Shown here one piece after another: positions 780 to 16,792 of a stretch of 64,000 nucleotides of DNA. The stretch is taken from positions 191,623-255,622 of the forward strand of contig JAFWSJ010000014.1 in NCBI GenBank assembly GCA_017524405.1, written 5' to 3'. This DNA comes from Candidatus Saccharimonadota bacterium. Lineage in GTDB: Bacteria; Patescibacteriota; Saccharimonadia; Saccharimonadales; Saccharimonadaceae. Both the position numbers and the translations under genes were made by a program. How positions within the stretch are numbered: the first letter of the stretch is position 1; each line of letters opens with the position of its first letter. The notes beneath the pieces were generated by a model. It was not told the DNA's origin and searched no databases. It saw only the letters and a program-made list of their open reading frames with translations.

Positions 780-2141
780 CTATTTGTTGTTCATATATTT
801 GATTAGCGCATCGCGGAGATCTTTGACCGGGAGGACAAATTTGTCCTTCACGGTCGCTGGGGCGATAGCATTCTTGAAACCAAGCTTCTTCGCCTCGGCG
901 ATGCGGCGATCTGGCGCGATGACGGAGCGGATTTCACCGCCGAGGCCAACCTCGCCGAAGACGACGAGATTATCGTCGAGCTTGCGGCCGGCCGCGGCCG
1001 ATGCAATTGCCATACAAATCGCGAGATCTGCCGCGGAATCGTTAAGCTTCATGCCGCCGACGACATTAATAAAAATATCTTTGTCCTGGAGTTTGAGCTT
1101 CGTGCGTTTTTCGAGTACGGCAATCAAGAGGTTAAGGCGATTAAGGTCGAAGCCAGACGCGGTGCGCTTCGGATAGCCAAAGCTTGTCGTATTAACGAGC
1201 GCCTGAATTTCGACAAGGAGCGGGCGCGTGCCCTCGATGGTCGCCATGATGATGCTACCATCGGTATTTTGACGTTCAGAAAGCAGCGCCTCGGACGGAT
1301 TTTTCACCTCGACGAGACCTTCCGTGGCCATCTCAAAAATCGCAACTTCATTGGTCGAACCAAAGCGGTTTTTGACCGCGCGAATCGTCTTAAATCCGCC
1401 GTAGCGATCACCTTCGAAATTCAAAACGACGTCCACGAGATGCTCGAGGACTTTTGGCCCAGCAAGCGTGCCTTCCTTCGTAACGTGGCCGACAATGATG
1501 ACGGCGGTGCCACTATTTTTCGCGGCGCGAATAATGAGGTTGCCGCAGTTGCTAACCTGGCTAACCGTACCGGGAGCCGAACTAATCTCTGCCATAGAAA
1601 GCGTCTGAATCGAGTCGACGATCACGAGGTCATAGCCATCTTCCTCAATGGTTTTAGCAATGTCGTTCGCGGAAGAAGAGCTTGCAAAATGGAGTTGGTC
1701 GGAGCTGGCGCCAAGACGCACTGCGCGAAGCTTCACCTGTCCGGCCGATTCCTCGCCAGAAACGTAGAGCACCTTGTGGCCGTCAGCGGAAACCTTAGCG
1801 CAAATTTGCATAAGAATCGTAGACTTGCCCATGCCCGGCTGACCGGCCAGAAGCGCCACGCCACCCAGCAAAATCCCGCCGCCGAGAACATTATCCAGTT
1901 CGGCAAACCCGGTCTTTAGACGGCTACCGGCGTCGGACGGCTCAATTTCATTAATTGAAACGGCGGCGAGTTTCTTGCCAGAAACTGCCCCGCGTGCGAG
2001 GGCGGATTTTGCCTCGGCTTCGGTCGGAACCTCTTGCTCGAGCAGCGTATTCCATTCGCCGCAATTCTCGCAGCGCCCTGCCCACTTGGCATAGCTCGTG
2101 CCACAATTTTGGCAAACAAATTTTGCTTTAGCTTTTGCCAT
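780..2141 (-). CDS. radA: DNA repair protein RadA (Sms)
   Basis: 453 residues, the usual length. RadA is a RecA-like hexameric helicase that helps branch migration during recombination. In order: an N-terminal zinc finger with two CxxC pairs (CQNC near residue 10, CENC near 24), a RecA-like ATPase core with Walker A GQPGMGKST near residue 105, the RadA-specific KNRFG motif (AVKNRFGSTNE), and a C-terminal Lon-protease-like domain. The ATG is preceded at 6 nt by GGAGGTG, one of the few clear Shine-Dalgarno sites in this block, which fits co-transcription from clpP located 27 nt upstream. Confidence 0.96.
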   Translation of the reverse strand: MAKAKAKFVCQNCGTSYAKWAGRCENCGEWNTLLEQEVPTEAEAKSALARGAVSGKKLAAVSINEIEPSDAGSRLKTGFAELDNVLGGGILLGGVALLAGQPGMGKSTILMQICAKVSADGHKVLYVSGEESAGQVKLRAVRLGASSDQLHFASSSSANDIAKTIEEDGYDLVIVDSIQTLSMAEISSAPGTVSQVSNCGNLIIRAAKNSGTAVIIVGHVTKEGTLAGPKVLEHLVDVVLNFEGDRYGGFKTIRAVKNRFGSTNEVAIFEMATEGLVEVKNPSEALLSERQNTDGSIIMATIEGTRPLLVEIQALVNTTSFGYPKRTASGFDLNRLNLLIAVLEKRTKLKLQDKDIFINVVGGMKLNDSAADLAICMAIASAAAGRKLDDNLVVFGEVGLGGEIRSVIAPDRRIAEAKKLGFKNAIAPATVKDKFVLPVKDLRDALIKYMNNK

Positions 2142-11170: not shown

Positions 11171-11977
11171 CTAGCTCTTTCGCGTTTTTTCAAGCAAAAG
11201 CGACAAAATGAAGGCGGCGAGGTTGACGAGTACGACCGTGGCGCCGGTTGGCGTGGCAAGCATGTACGACAAAGCAAGACCAATTAGGAAGGCGACGATC
11301 GAAATGAGAACCGAAGCGAAGACGACGCCTTTGAAGTTTTTCGCGAGACGCATAGCAGTGAGGGTTGGGAAAATGATGAGACTCGAGATAAGAAGCGAGC
11401 CGAGGAGACGCATACCAAGCACGACCGTGCATGAGCAAATGGCGGCGAAGATTGCGTCATAGATGCTGGTTTTGACGCCGACCGACTTCGCAAATTCCTC
11501 GTCAAAGGTGATGGCAAAAATGCGGTGGTAAGCGAAGAGGTAGAGGCTAACGACGATGACTGCAAGGACGATGCTCATAACGACATCCGCCCAGCTGGCC
11601 GAGAGAATGCTGCCGAAGAGGTAACTATTTAGGTCAATATTCACGCCCTTCGAGACAGAAATCGCGAAGGTGCCGATAGCGAGACTGGAAGCCGAGAGTA
11701 CTGCGATAGCGGCGTCGCCATGAACTTTCTTGCTTTGGCTAAGGCGCAGCACGAAGAATGAGGCGATAATGACAACCGGCAAGGCGACATAGAGCGGCGC
11801 GAGACCGAGCACTGTCGCAAGCGCGAAGGCCGAGAAGGCGGTGTGGCTGAGGCCGTCGCCAATCATGGAATTTTTGCGAAGCACCAGTGAGACGCCGACG
11901 AGTGCGGCGCAAATTGCGACGCAGAGCCCGACGATGAGCGCGCGTTGCATGAAGGCATATTGGAACATTTCGATCAT
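11171..11977 (-). CDS. znuB: Zinc ABC transporter permease ZnuB-like
   Basis: 268 residues with about eight membrane segments, as in the ABC-3 permease family. It forms the membrane channel for zinc (or manganese) uptake with the ATPase and binding protein encoded just upstream. The family signature is seen around MIGDGLSHTAFSAFA near residues 37-50 and in the GMRLLGSLLISSLIIFPTLTA region. The ATG overlaps the stop of the ATPase gene (ATGA), so translation is coupled. Metal specificity is inferred from the Zur-like gene at the head of the operon. Confidence 0.92.
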   Translation of the reverse strand: MIEMFQYAFMQRALIVGLCVAICAALVGVSLVLRKNSMIGDGLSHTAFSAFALATVLGLAPLYVALPVVIIASFFVLRLSQSKKVHGDAAIAVLSASSLAIGTFAISVSKGVNIDLNSYLFGSILSASWADVVMSIVLAVIVVSLYLFAYHRIFAITFDEEFAKSVGVKTSIYDAIFAAICSCTVVLGMRLLGSLLISSLIIFPTLTAMRLAKNFKGVVFASVLISIVAFLIGLALSYMLATPTGATVVLVNLAAFILSLLLEKTRKS

Positions 11978-12651
11978 TTGTATTTCTCCAGATATTCTTC
12001 GGTTTTTGCGATGGTCGCCGCGCCGTTTTCGATTGCAATGACTTTATTACCAATGAGGTCGTCCGCGTCGAGGTCGTGGGTAATCATGATAATGGCGAGA
12101 TGTTGGTCTTTGTTTAGTTTCGCGAGAGTTTTATAGAAATCCTTACGCGATTTATAGTCGAGATTATTCGATGGCTCGTCGAGAATAAGAAGCTTCTTCG
12201 TCGCAGAAAGCGAGCGCGCGAGGAGAACCTTCTGGCGCTGACCGCCGGAGAGATTCGCGAAGCTATGCTTGGCAAGATTCTCGATGCCGAGCAACGCTAG
12301 GCTTTCCATGGCATGCTTTTTCTCATGATGGCAGTAGAATGGGCGCATCTTCATATGGCCGAGGCAGCCCGAGAGCACGATTTCTTCGACCGTGGCTGGG
12401 AAGTTTGCGTCTGGGCGAGTGTCCTGCGGGAGATAGCCGATTTTCGTTTGGTCGAGGCCTTCACCGAATTCAATTGCCCCGCTCGCCGGCTTAATGAGCC
12501 CGAGAATACCTTTTATCAGGGTGGATTTACCGGAGCCGTTCGCGCCAACCACGCAAGCAAAGTCCCCAGGCTCGAGCGTAAAGCTCGCGTCTTTTATGAT
12601 GATCTGCTCGCCGTATTTGAGGCGGAGTTTTTTGACGGAGAGGAGCGACAT
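11974..12651 (-). CDS. znuC: Zinc ABC transporter ATP-binding protein ZnuC-like
   Basis: 225 residues, one ABC domain: Walker A GANGSGKST near 37-45, Q-loop (YLPQDTRP), signature LSGGQRQKV, Walker B LLILDEPSNNLD and the switch His in MITHDLD. It energises the ZnuB permease. The start overlaps the stop codon of the binding-protein gene (TGATG) and its stop overlaps the permease start, so all three are translationally coupled. Confidence 0.94.
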   Translation of the reverse strand: MSLLSVKKLRLKYGEQIIIKDASFTLEPGDFACVVGANGSGKSTLIKGILGLIKPASGAIEFGEGLDQTKIGYLPQDTRPDANFPATVEEIVLSGCLGHMKMRPFYCHHEKKHAMESLALLGIENLAKHSFANLSGGQRQKVLLARSLSATKKLLILDEPSNNLDYKSRKDFYKTLAKLNKDQHLAIIMITHDLDADDLIGNKVIAIENGAATIAKTEEYLEKYK

Positions 12652-13589
12652 CAGTAGAGTGCCTCCTTGAGCGTGTCGACGTTTTTTTCCATAATGTCGG
12701 CATAGGTGACGCCCTTTTCGAAGTCTTCCTGCGAAATATTGTGCGCAGCGGAAAGCTCATAGACTTTTGCGCCAGATTCGTCGGCGATGGTCTGGGCAAG
12801 CTGGCCGTTTGTTAACTCAATCTTAAAGATGGCCTTCGCATTAGTCTCTTTCGCCTTGTCAACGAGAAAAGCGACCGTACTACTGCTAGCCTCGGTCTGG
12901 TCGGAACAGCCCGGAAAGGCCGCAAAATAGTCGAGGCCATATTCGTCGACAAAGTAACGGAATGGGAAGCGATCGCCAAAGATGAGGGTTTTACTTGGTG
13001 CCGCCATGACGACCGAGCGGAAATTCTCGTCAATATCCCTGATGCGCACAAGATAATTATTGGCATTCTCGACGTATTGCTCAGATTTGTCTGGTTCGAG
13101 ATCGGAGAGCTTGTCGCGAATCGCCTCGATAAGCCTTATCGCATTCTTTGGGCTAGTCCAGATGTGCTCGTCGTACTCCTCCTCTTCTTCCTCTTCTTCG
13201 CCTTCCATGCCCTCTTTTTCTTCCTCGGTTTTTAGCTCGACGAAGTCCATAAGGCGCAGAGTCTTGTCGCGCGAAATATTATTGTCTGCGAGAATTTTAT
13301 CCACCCAAGCATCCGATTCCCCGCCATTATAGATGAAGAGCTTCGCCTGCTGGATCGCAATAATGTCCTGCGGGGTCGGCTCGTAGTCGTGAGTTTCGGT
13401 CCCCGGCTTAATCAGCATTTTTACGCCATTGCCATCGCCCGTAACGGCGCGCGCAAAATCGTAACCGACGAAGTTCGAGGAGACGATTTTTGCATTTTCT
13501 GGATGAAATTTCGGCCAGAGGATGAAGAACGCGATGATGCCGACCAACGAAATCGCGAGCATAATAATGTTTTTAATCAGTTGTTTCAT
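12651..13589 (-). CDS. znuA: Zinc ABC transporter substrate-binding protein (ZnuA/cluster 9)
   Basis: 312 residues, membrane-anchored by an N-terminal hydrophobic segment (about 9-27). Cluster 9 features: GTETHDYEPTPQD with the first metal His, then an acidic insertion of eight consecutive Glu near residue 135 before EHIWTSPKNA with the second His, where other ZnuA proteins have a His-rich loop. The third ligand position reads GDRFPFRYF instead of a His, as in one known subgroup, and GCSDQTEAS follows. Shine-Dalgarno AAGGGTGG lies 4 nt before the ATG. It starts 12 nt after zur and captures zinc at the cell surface. Confidence 0.92.
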   Translation of the reverse strand: MKQLIKNIIMLAISLVGIIAFFILWPKFHPENAKIVSSNFVGYDFARAVTGDGNGVKMLIKPGTETHDYEPTPQDIIAIQQAKLFIYNGGESDAWVDKILADNNISRDKTLRLMDFVELKTEEEKEGMEGEEEEEEEEYDEHIWTSPKNAIRLIEAIRDKLSDLEPDKSEQYVENANNYLVRIRDIDENFRSVVMAAPSKTLIFGDRFPFRYFVDEYGLDYFAAFPGCSDQTEASSSTVAFLVDKAKETNAKAIFKIELTNGQLAQTIADESGAKVYELSAAHNISQEDFEKGVTYADIMEKNVDTLKEALY

Positions 13590-13601
13590 TTTTCCACCCT
13601 T

Positions 13602-13991
13602 TCACTTTGCGCAGCGCTTGCAAGTACCGCCAATAATAATATTCTTTTCGTCTGCCTGGAAGCCATGTTCGTCCGCGACGTGCTCCATGAGTTGTTTCAC
13701 GAGGCGGCAATCGGTATGCTCGAGACGGCCGCACTGGTCGCATTTCAGATAGCAGTGACCAGTATTATGACAATCCTCAAGATATTGAAAACGGACCGTA
13801 CCGTCAGCCGAGATGTTCTTACGCAAGTCCCCCGCCTCGATCATCTCGTCGGCGACGCGATAGATGGTAGTAAGCCCCACATCTTCGCCCAAGCGAACGA
13901 GCTCGTTATAGATATCTTTGACTGAAAATTCGCGGCTCTGGTCGGCGATGATTTTCTGAATTTTTACTTTTTGGCGGGTATTGTATGTCAT
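13602..13991 (-). CDS. zur: Fur-family metalloregulator, Zur-like
   Basis: 129 residues. It has an N-terminal winged helix (KIIADQSREFSVKDIYNEL...GLTTIYRVADEMIEAG) and a dimerisation domain with the zinc pairs CDQC (near 98-101) and CKRC at the C-terminus. It heads the znuA-znuC-znuB operon, so zinc is the likely ligand; Fur or PerR specificity is not excluded. The ATG lies 6 nt after a TATACT -10 box, and a perfect palindrome overlaps its -35 box, so it probably represses itself and the transporter. Confidence 0.9.
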   Translation of the reverse strand: MTYNTRQKVKIQKIIADQSREFSVKDIYNELVRLGEDVGLTTIYRVADEMIEAGDLRKNISADGTVRFQYLEDCHNTGHCYLKCDQCGRLEHTDCRLVKQLMEHVADEHGFQADEKNIIIGGTCKRCAK

Positions 13992-14590: not shown

Positions 14591-14612
14591 AAAAAAATAA
14601 TCCCTCTCGGGA
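14591..14612 (-). terminator. Terminator of the tRNA-Cys/tRNA-Leu unit
   Basis: Minus-strand TCCC-GAGA-GGGA followed by TTATTTTTTT, 10 nt after the CCA end of tRNA-Leu. Confidence 0.75.
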
Positions 14613-14621
14613 ATCAAAAGT

Positions 14622-14708
14622 TGGTGGGCGAGATGGGACTCGAACCCATAATCCGGTAAAGGAAGCAGATTTTAAGTCTGCCGCGTATACCAATTCCGCC
14701 ACTCGCCC
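14622..14708 (-). tRNA. tRNA-Leu (anticodon TAA)
   Basis: 87 nt with encoded CCA, acceptor GGGCGAG/CTCGCCC, anticodon stem GCAGA/TCTGC with loop CTTAAAA, a long variable arm (class II) and a normal T-loop TTCGAGT with a normal GG in the D-loop. It lies 23 nt after tRNA-Cys. Confidence 0.95.
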
Positions 14709-14731
14709 CTAGGAGACCTAAATAATCTATA

Positions 14732-14805
14732 TGGAGGTGCGTACCAGAGTTGCACTGGTCTACGAGGTTTTGCAGACCTCTGCGTAACTGCTCCGCCAAC
14801 GCACC
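14732..14805 (-). tRNA. tRNA-Cys (anticodon GCA)
   Basis: 74 nt with encoded CCA and discriminator T: acceptor GGTGCGT/ACGCACC, anticodon stem GAGGT/ACCTC with loop CTGCAAA, T-arm ACCAG/CTGGT. The T-loop is TGCAACT, so position 55 is G instead of U. The D-loop reads AGCAGTTA, so position 18 is A instead of G. Both partners of the conserved 18-55 contact are changed. A TAAAAT -10 box about 7 nt upstream gives it its own promoter. Confidence 0.93.
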
Positions 14806-14831
14806 ATGGCTCTATTTTAGCAAAGGTCGGG

Positions 14832-14912
14832 CAAAAAAATAAGTCCCTTTCGCATGAGACTCATTTCTAATTGTCCGGGTCAACTCTCAGTGATCCCGAC
14901 AAACACCTCTTG
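14832..14912 (-). ncRNA. Small RNA of about 80 nt, family unknown
   Basis: A minus-strand unit with a near-consensus promoter and an intrinsic terminator but no open frame. From the predicted start near 14912 the RNA holds one hairpin (TTGTC-GGG pairing with CCC-GGACAA, one bulge, around 14869-14900) and then the terminator: a 9-bp stem (14839-14864, two G-U pairs) with 8-nt loop and seven U residues. Downstream lies only tRNA-Cys, which has its own promoter, so a riboswitch controlling a gene is unlikely. It resembles no RNA family that I can name. Confidence 0.65.
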
Positions 14913-14918
14913 CTTATT

Positions 14919-14947
14919 ATTTTAGACGCAAGCATTTTATTAGTCAA
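14919..14947 (-). promoter_or_regulatory. Promoter of the small RNA at 14832-14912
   Basis: -35 TTGACT (14942-14947), 17-nt spacer, -10 TAAAAT (14919-14924). It is back to back with a plus-strand promoter whose -35 starts at 14950. Confidence 0.75.
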
Positions 14948-14949
14948 CA

Positions 14950-14979
14950 TTGACTTTTTCGTGTTTTATTGTGTTATAT
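14950..14979 (+). promoter_or_regulatory. Distal promoter upstream of superoxide reductase
   Basis: -35 TTGACT (14950-14955), 18-nt spacer ending TGTG, -10 TTATAT (14974-14979). The transcript would have a leader of about 115 nt holding a 14-codon frame (15002-15046). Confidence 0.55.
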
Positions 14980-15001
14980 ACTCATGAATTAACAGGGGTA
15001 G

Positions 15002-15046
15002 ATGGATGAAAATCTATTTACTATTTGCGGAAATGTTGCGGAATAA
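15002..15046 (+). other. Possible 14-residue upstream peptide
   Basis: ATG to TAA, MDENLFTICGNVAE, with AGGGG a few nt upstream. It lies between the distal promoter and the proximal promoter of the superoxide reductase gene. No attenuator hairpin is seen, so a leader peptide is only a possibility. Confidence 0.2.
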
Positions 15047-15050
15047 TATA

Positions 15051-15080
15051 TTGATAAAAGCACGAGAAATAAGGTAAAAT
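15051..15080 (+). promoter_or_regulatory. Proximal promoter of superoxide reductase
   Basis: TTGATA (15051-15056), 18-nt spacer, TAAAAT (15075-15080), followed by the Shine-Dalgarno AAAGGAGG before the ATG at 15101. Confidence 0.6.
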
Positions 15081-15100
15081 AGAAGCAATAAAGGAGGTTT

Positions 15101-15496
15101 ATGGGAGAAAAACGAGAAGGCTTGAAGTTTTATCGCTGCAATACTTGCGGTAATCTGTTCTTCGTCATGATTGATCCAGATGTACGCCCTTCTTGCTGCG
15201 GCAATGAAATGGAAGTTATCGATACGATTCATGGTACCGAAGGTAGTGAAAAACATGCGCCAATTATTGAGCTAAATCAGAACGATACAGAGGTCCAGGT
15301 CGGCCTACAGCTTCACGCTATGGAGCCTGAGCATCGCATCGAATGGGTGGCTCTAACAGATGGCGAACGCGTCGAAATTCAGAAACTTGGTCTTTCTACC
15401 CCACCAGTCGTGAAGTTCTCAAAGATGAACGGCGCCGGCAAGGTTCGCGCCTATGCGTTCTGTAATATTCACGGCCTATGGGAATCCGAAAAGTAG
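15101..15496 (+). CDS. dfx: Desulfoferrodoxin-type superoxide reductase (2Fe-SOR)
   Basis: 131 residues, full two-domain form. It reduces superoxide to hydrogen peroxide without making oxygen. The N-terminal desulforedoxin domain has C13, C16, C32 and C33 for the FeS4 centre. The catalytic domain has the E50-K51-H52 loop, H72 and H78 (HAMEPEH) and C121/H124 (FCNIHGLW) for the active Fe centre. Strong Shine-Dalgarno AAAGGAGG. It heads a unit with a CPSC membrane protein (19-nt overlap) and a membrane DsbA-like protein, so oxygen defence and thiol chemistry seem linked. The natural electron donor is not seen in the window. Confidence 0.95.
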   Translation: MGEKREGLKFYRCNTCGNLFFVMIDPDVRPSCCGNEMEVIDTIHGTEGSEKHAPIIELNQNDTEVQVGLQLHAMEPEHRIEWVALTDGERVEIQKLGLSTPPVVKFSKMNGAGKVRAYAFCNIHGLWESEK

Positions 15497-16089
15497 CTGA
15501 GACGATCTTTGATCGGGCGAAGCTTGGTTTGTTCGGTTTTGGCAAAGTTTTTTCGCGTCCAAAATATGCGATTTTTGGTATATTCTGCATAATTTTGATC
15601 GCTTATATCTTGAGTTTTTGGCAAAATGGCAACGGAAATTGGCAGTTAATATGCTCTGGACTGCCGCTCGGCGATAAGCTCGGCGTCCTGGGACGCGTCT
15701 TCCTAAATATCGGCGAGAACTTTACGTCGCTCTGGGGCATCAGCATCATCCTGCTCGCTATTCTACAGGGCATCGTGATTGCGCAGCTCGTCTTTACTTG
15801 GCGCCACCGCGAGAAAAATGCCGCTCTAGACGGAGCAAGCACTGGTGGAATTGGAGCCATACTCGGCTTCATCGCCCTGGGCTGCCCAAGCTGCGGAATC
15901 GGCCTGCTTACCCCTATTCTCTCAGCAATCGCCGGAGCAAGCGCAGTCGCTATGGCAGAGACGATTGGTAAAATTTTCACAATTCTCGCCTTTAGCCTAC
16001 TTATCTTTACTATCCTCGGACTCGGTTATATCGACTATGTCCTAGCAAGCGTTAATAACAGAAAGGAAAAGCATGCAAAAAGCAATTAG
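15478..16089 (+). CDS. Membrane protein with CPSC motif
   Basis: 203 residues with about four membrane segments (27-48, 84-106, 122-155, 164-188). Cysteines at 37, 59 and a pair in ALGCPSCGIG (136/139) near the start of the third segment. I do not recognise a named family. The gene overlaps the superoxide reductase stop by 19 nt and the DsbA-like start by 17 nt, so the three are translated together. A membrane redox partner that reoxidises or reduces the DsbA-like protein, in the manner of DsbB, VKOR or CcdA, is a plausible inference from the CxxC pair and the neighbours, not shown by homology. Confidence 0.8.
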   Translation: MGIRKVAETIFDRAKLGLFGFGKVFSRPKYAIFGIFCIILIAYILSFWQNGNGNWQLICSGLPLGDKLGVLGRVFLNIGENFTSLWGISIILLAILQGIVIAQLVFTWRHREKNAALDGASTGGIGAILGFIALGCPSCGIGLLTPILSAIAGASAVAMAETIGKIFTILAFSLLIFTILGLGYIDYVLASVNNRKEKHAKSN

Positions 16090-16792
16090 AATTGGCGCAT
16101 TGGTTGCCGTAATTGGACTTCTTGTGGGGCTCGTGGTATATAACATACTCAACCCGCCAGCGCCAGATAATAGCGTCTGGAACGCCGCAATGAGCAAGGG
16201 CGACACCGAAACCGCGAAGCACCACTTCGTCATGTACACGGATATCTTCTGCCCATATTGCGACAAATTCTCGAATGCAATCGCCGCAAACCTCGATAAG
16301 TGGGAGAAGGACTATATTGAGCGCGAAAACGTCCTCTTTGAAATTCGCGTCACGGACATAAACTATAGAAACGGCCATTCGAACAACAGCCGCCCAGCTG
16401 GCATCGCCGCGTATTGTGCCGCCAGACAGAATAAGTTCTGGGATTACTACTACGCATTGCTCGCCCAGATGTTCGAAGATTACCACTCGAAAGGCATCGG
16501 TGTCGATCCGTATAGCCAGCATATCCCAGACCTCCCAAATAGCTACTTCACCGACGTCGCAAAGGACATCGAGTTCGATCAAGACAGCTTCAAGCAATGC
16601 GTCGACAACCAGGAAACCCTGAGCGAACTCAACAAAAATACCGCCAAGGCCGAAAAGAACCTCAATGGCAGCGGTATCCCGCACTTCGTCTTCGATAAGT
16701 TCGTCTACGACGGCTTCGCTGGCAACTGGGACACGACTCACGATTACGAGCAAGTCAAAACGCTCATGAACGCGGGCCTATCTACGAAGTAA
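16073..16792 (+). CDS. Membrane-anchored DsbA-like thiol oxidoreductase
   Basis: 239 residues. An N-terminal signal anchor (about 5-24) is followed by a thioredoxin fold with active site FCPYC (HHFVMYTDIFCPYCDKF, near residues 50-66), a helical insertion, and the cis-proline loop SGIPHF near residue 203. It probably acts outside the membrane on disulfides of secreted proteins; several exported proteins in the window have paired cysteines. It overlaps the CPSC membrane gene by 17 nt. A following -10-like TATAAT (16799-16804) separates it from the stomatin gene. Confidence 0.88.
   Translation: MQKAIRIGALVAVIGLLVGLVVYNILNPPAPDNSVWNAAMSKGDTETAKHHFVMYTDIFCPYCDKFSNAIAANLDKWEKDYIERENVLFEIRVTDINYRNGHSNNSRPAGIAAYCAARQNKFWDYYYALLAQMFEDYHSKGIGVDPYSQHIPDLPNSYFTDVAKDIEFDQDSFKQCVDNQETLSELNKNTAKAEKNLNGSGIPHFVFDKFVYDGFAGNWDTTHDYEQVKTLMNAGLSTK

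Follow-up and report, generated by a model that had tools for sequence, protein, structure and literature searches.

The window, meaning the whole 64,000-nucleotide stretch of DNA that was analysed, carries on its minus strand (14833-14947) a compact unit composed of a promoter, a predicted small RNA (sRNA) and an intrinsic terminator, as found by direct reading and by a promoter and terminator scan. Two tRNA genes lie downstream of it, and an operon of three genes diverges from it on the plus strand. The features are as follows.

14622..14708, minus strand: tRNA-Leu(taa), downstream neighbour after tRNA-Cys (tRNA search)
14732..14805, minus strand: tRNA-Cys(gca), downstream neighbour of the sRNA (tRNA search)
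14833..14866, minus strand: intrinsic terminator, loop GCGA within UGCGAA, then U7 (T run 14833-14839; compensatory change)
14833..14912, minus strand: predicted sRNA of about 80 nt (the -10 box suggests its start and the T run its end)
14871..14902, minus strand: hairpin H1, lower stem UUGUC/GACAA, G.G mismatch, upper stem (compensatory change)
14883..14890, minus strand: apical loop of H1, CUGAGAGU; family consensus GUUGAGAG (alignments, loop counts)
14919..14924, minus strand: -10 element TAAAAT of the sRNA promoter (reading, scan, 26-row alignment)
14927..14933, minus strand: conserved GCTTGCG between -35 and -10 (alignments)
14942..14947, minus strand: sRNA promoter, -35 box TTGACT (all 26 aligned rows keep TTGAC)
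14944..14953, no strand assigned: palindrome-like TCAACATTGA over back-to-back -35 boxes, candidate operator (TCAA-TTGA counts)
14990..14999, plus strand: conserved TAACAGGGGT, CYCTGTTA on the sRNA strand (C[CT]CTGT counts in homologous loci)
15101..15496, plus strand: desulfoferrodoxin / superoxide-reductase-like gene, divergent from the sRNA (PF01880, E 1.5e-16)
15478..16089, plus strand: 203-aa membrane protein of the divergent operon (membrane nature judged from sequence)
16073..16792, plus strand: DsbA-like thioredoxin-fold protein of the divergent operon (PF13462, E 1.8e-12)

The first gene of the divergent operon scored below the cut-off of TIGR00320, and the membrane protein encoded next to it has no significant match to a Pfam or NCBIfam family; the latter protein carries a GCPSCG motif, and its gene sits between the desulfoferrodoxin-like and DsbA-like genes. 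Elsewhere in the window, at 11171-13991, a Fur-family regulator adjoins a metal ABC transporter, which together we take to be, probably, a zinc uptake operon (Zur/ZnuABC).

Viewed in the window alone the unit is unconvincing, because its fold is moderate and promoter-like sites are common in shuffled sequence. The sRNA promoter, TTGACT-17-TAAAAT, agrees with the consensus at 10 of 12 positions across a 17-nt spacer; sites of equal quality arise 2.1 times per shuffled region, so that the promoter by itself does not exceed chance. The single-sequence fold has an energy of -25.4 kcal/mol and a modest z of -2.45, with 3 of 200 shuffles equally good. The terminator was missed by a rule-based terminator scan and picked up by a separate scan for terminator-like hairpins, and its loop, UGCGAA (14849-14854), occurs in one of the 71 such hairpins of the window, which rules it out as a general terminator habit. 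The same loop is retained in many same-genus relatives.

What places the unit beyond chance is the alignment of 26 homologous loci, together with compensatory change in both of its stems. A DNA search of 61 genomes returned sRNA homologues in the genus of the window, and the 26 aligned loci display the same promoter-hairpin layout, the promoter region being the best-conserved part at the DNA level. A covariance model of the promoter and hairpin (R1), built from nine hand-picked loci, matched 39 of 45 same-genus genomes (E <= 0.01). One of these 39 (G031) has a degenerate hairpin without the UUGAGAG loop in a locus of unchanged layout (L309), a natural loss of the putative seed, and a 40th genome (G068), missed by the first filter, carries the unit beside a DsbA-like gene. 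Three of the remaining five have no DsbA-like match, and in the other two the region is cut at a contig end or is represented by a gene fragment only. A second model (R2), which represents a sister genus and scores the window's own copy (recovered by R1) below its threshold, matched 184 of 394 family genomes, confined to 2 of 61 genera: 22 in the genus of the window and 162 in that one sister genus, the latter figure being a count of matches and not a fraction of the genus. Ten non-matching genomes were inspected. Within a sample of the phylum (379 genomes) R2 matched ten, seven in the same two genera and three weakly, and no convincing homologue was found in that sample outside the two genera; a weak match there (G078) consists of the promoter only, without the hairpin unit. 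An apparent second sRNA copy in another genome (G035) resembles the start of a coding sequence and was rejected. A scan of 84,980 species, with a pattern that contained UUGAGAG and a degenerate form of the GCTTGCG spacer motif, produced 79 loci, 77 of them titled Candidatus Saccharibacteria and derived, by their titles, mostly from ruminant or other gut samples; the other two (L086 and L101, Clostridiales and Bacillota bins) lack both the family hairpin and related neighbours, and were left out of later counts as chance matches. A distant DNA search with 14600-15100 (phage records) returned, among the best 20 matches, tRNA-Leu matches and one unannotated match.

Conservation of the stems in relatives, on which the original prediction had staked itself, is evident in two alignments. 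The first, made with MAFFT and not fitted to the structure, omits four of the 17 same-genus loci extracted, whose 3' parts were longer or different, and retains 13. Across these relatives standard pairs make up 93.4% of the cells in 19 pairs, and 13 pairs have changed on both sides (7 of 11 in H1 and 6 of 8 in the terminator stem); the count of 43 double-changed cells exceeds every one of 500 shuffles (15.8 +/- 3.2), and slid versions of the structure reach at most 7. The second draws on the 77 pattern loci, of which it takes 32, most of them sister-genus loci, and retains five rows misaligned by one base; in it H1 displays 53 double-changed cells against 18.2 +/- 3.6 shuffled (0 of 500), with compensatory change in 8 of 10 pairs. 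The number of varying pairs in these 32 loci is weakly above shuffles (45 of 500 as high), and further pair types are not above them (499 of 500 as high). To judge from these substitutions, both sRNA hairpins are under selection for base pairing. The sequence features of the original description (promoter, hairpin, and terminator with seven U) are confirmed by reading, conservation and compensatory change, and its interpretation as a complete unit for a noncoding RNA of ~80 nt is supported; it did not name the strand, which is minus, and it missed the operon of redox genes on the other side, the conservation of the loop and the palindrome around the -35 box.

The unit beside tRNA-Cys has a promoter and an intrinsic terminator of its own, both kept in relatives according to the consensus evidence, and is best explained as a stand-alone gene encoding a trans-acting regulatory RNA, a prediction from sequence to which a probability of about 0.6 is assigned. 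Its apical loop is nearly invariant as UUGAGAG while the stems vary, and is present in all 77 pattern loci, having been part of the scan pattern. The extended form GUUGAGAG is found in 50 of 50 sister-type loci versus 17 of 27 loci of the window's type, and the loops of the window and of two close relatives read CUGAGAG. A G.N mismatch is frequent in the H1 stem among homologues. In the sister genus the sRNA has additional length and further conserved motifs, of the GGGUGG/GGAGGU type in 43 of 50 loci and CUAGRAA in 44 of 50. The exposed UUGAGAG loop would act as a seed that pairs with target RNAs.

A candidate target is found upstream of rsmH (mraW). Among 31 genomes, the loop complement with a nearby ATG gave 46 matches against 13 for the reversed pattern, the ATG being incidental, and sites near rsmH recur in at least 17 loci. 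The structured RNA at that position lies outside the window (L199, about 1378-1800, minus strand; G000:C8 near 72,700-73,100), and the start of rsmH is apparently a few bases past a TATAAT. These elements are 221-287 nt in length, are closed by a long helix and have no Rfam match; in an alignment of 25 of 28 extracted elements, from 34 loci examined, 18 of 47 predicted pairs show compensatory change, and the modelled consensus fold leaves CACCUCCC and GUCUCUCAAC unpaired. The sequence CTCTCAAC, predicted to be unpaired, is present in 44 of 44 retrieved same-genus and sister-genus elements (39 genomes with a detected sRNA and 5 without). The site persists in G031 despite the loss of the sRNA loop there, 25 of the 26 outgroup genomes retain its core CTCTCA (10 of the 26 all eight bases), and a variant sRNA loop, GUUGAAAG in G129, is accompanied by no compensating change in the rsmH-upstream element. 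The longest complementary run between the two RNAs is the loop in 30 of 39 genome pairs, and the window's own loop, CUGAGAGU, matches the site over 6-7 nt only. Only 5 of the 39 genome pairs have a duplex energy that reaches the 5% level of shuffles or lies under it, and these energies, computed over the full length and no better than shuffles, were discarded as target evidence. Because the site persists without the sRNA loop, and because the duplex energies do not beat shuffles, the invariant single-stranded CUCUCAAC upstream of rsmH is a suggestive and weak candidate for the sRNA target, with the odds clearly against it. Two further candidates were rejected: the divergent mRNA, in which loop complements are not enriched (7 of 47, against about 9.8 expected), and start regions paired with the sister-genus motif CCUAGAAA, where the correspondence was weak (14 of 25 genomes).

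The weakness of the base-pairing tests, both for duplex energies and for the divergent mRNA, would also be expected if the sRNA worked by binding a protein (as a sequestering RNA or a scaffold) through its invariant UUGAGAG loop, and not by base pairing; a short and invariant loop that caps a covarying stem in which a G.N mismatch is frequent would be just as characteristic of a hairpin bound by a protein. No binding site of a known RNA-binding protein could be made out in the sRNA, however, and the CUAGRAA and GGGUGG/GGAGGU-type motifs of the sister genus are more like several pairing sites, so that protein binding is regarded as a possible, though rather unlikely, mode of action.

The conservation might alternatively reflect nothing other than a shared divergent promoter region, with incidental hairpins and a transcript that is a by-product. 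In favour of that reading, the promoter region is the part best conserved in DNA. In favour of a gene for a trans-acting RNA is the tight association of the unit with an operon of superoxide-reductase, membrane-protein and DsbA-like genes: this operon (at least one of its membrane-protein and DsbA-like genes detected) diverges from the sRNA in 58 of 79 pattern loci, with the desulfoferrodoxin-like gene first in 20 of those 58, and in 6 more of the 79 a DsbA-like gene lies directly upstream on the same strand. Of 26 genomes from other genera, only 3 gave a DsbA-like match, and beside the DsbA homologues of three outgroup genera no sRNA was detected. Within the window, the -35 boxes of two divergent promoters lie back to back in one palindrome (14944-14955), so one polymerase should exclude the other. 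TCAA immediately precedes TTGA in 48 of 57 homologous loci with the divergent operon and in 17 of 18 without it, and a C[CT]CTGT no more than 130 nt away accompanies 50 of the 57 but 8 of the 18; since the palindrome is kept where the divergent operon is missing and CYCTGT mostly is not, the former would serve control of the sRNA and the latter the divergent transcript, of which TAACAGGGGT is probably the 5' region. The spacer motif GCTTGCG reads GCCTATG in most sister-genus loci. That the conservation reflects the promoter region alone is improbable, because compensatory change in both hairpins is far above shuffles and because the unit persists in 18 loci where no divergent operon was detected.

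Downstream of the sRNA, relatives differ: tRNA-Cys follows on the sRNA strand in 15 of 79 loci, and uppS-like or other genes elsewhere. The presence of a hairpin and then a terminator ahead of tRNA-Cys and tRNA-Leu could be taken for a 5' leader or riboswitch-like attenuator of those genes, but the variation of the downstream gene, which implies that the sRNA stands alone, largely refutes that reading; with no constant gene downstream, no Rfam riboswitch match and no shared antiterminator evident by inspection, it is very improbable. The original prediction was correct that the next gene is a tRNA, and its further claim, that this tRNA has its own promoter, is plausible, a TAAAAT being placed 8 nt ahead of tRNA-Cys with no clear -35 element. 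That the unit encodes a small protein is scarcely credible and was rejected on frame variation, for although some homologues have frames of up to 77 codons, or of 100 codons running past the terminator, the longest frames across 77 loci run from 4 to 77 codons or beyond the terminator, no shared frame is evident, and the stems change in pairs.

If the unit is indeed a gene for a trans-acting RNA, a regulator bound at the TCAA-TR-TTGA palindrome would set the balance between the sRNA and the divergent operon, and the sRNA would thereby be produced in step with extracytoplasmic oxidation. The GUUGAGAG loop, together with the unpaired GUCUCUCAAC, might then couple the rsmH region, in the cell-division cluster, to such oxidation through the superoxide reductase / DsbA-like operon, a proposal that is considered doubtful and that, if true, would describe an RNA-to-RNA circuit that operates without Hfq in ultra-small, host-dependent bacteria. 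Hfq (PF17209) was not found in the source genome (G000, 99% complete), and was found in 5 of 14 control genomes.

As originally predicted, the RNA belongs to no known family: neither the window sRNA nor ten further homologue loci have an Rfam 15 match above the gathering cut-off, and tRNAs are the only features of the window, or of six homologue loci, that score above it. A literature search, with a coverage that leaves subscription journals and preprints mostly outside, found nothing on sRNAs or on a conserved regulatory RNA family of Saccharibacteria, and a term search of PMC8040213 gave no mention of Saccharibacteria sRNAs. The mraW RNA motif (RF01746) is listed for Actinomycetales (PMC2864571). 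It resembles the proposed partner of the sRNA as a structured RNA upstream of mraW/rsmH, and differs in that neither the sRNA nor the Saccharibacteria rsmH-upstream RNA matches any Rfam family. OxyS, a short structured stress sRNA that works with Hfq, is transcribed divergently from oxyR, a regulator gene. The RNA described here differs from an sRNA of that type in its divergent genes (a superoxide-reductase-like / DsbA-like operon), in that Hfq was not found, and in having no Rfam match, and is like it in being short and structured, in having a promoter and a terminator to itself, and in diverging from a locus related to oxidative stress. The kind, a stand-alone bacterial sRNA, is therefore well known, and the family, as far as these tools show, is new; if expressed, it would provide a concrete starting point for testing how reduced, host-dependent genomes exert post-transcriptional control, apparently with no Hfq, and would tie such control to a redox / disulfide operon.
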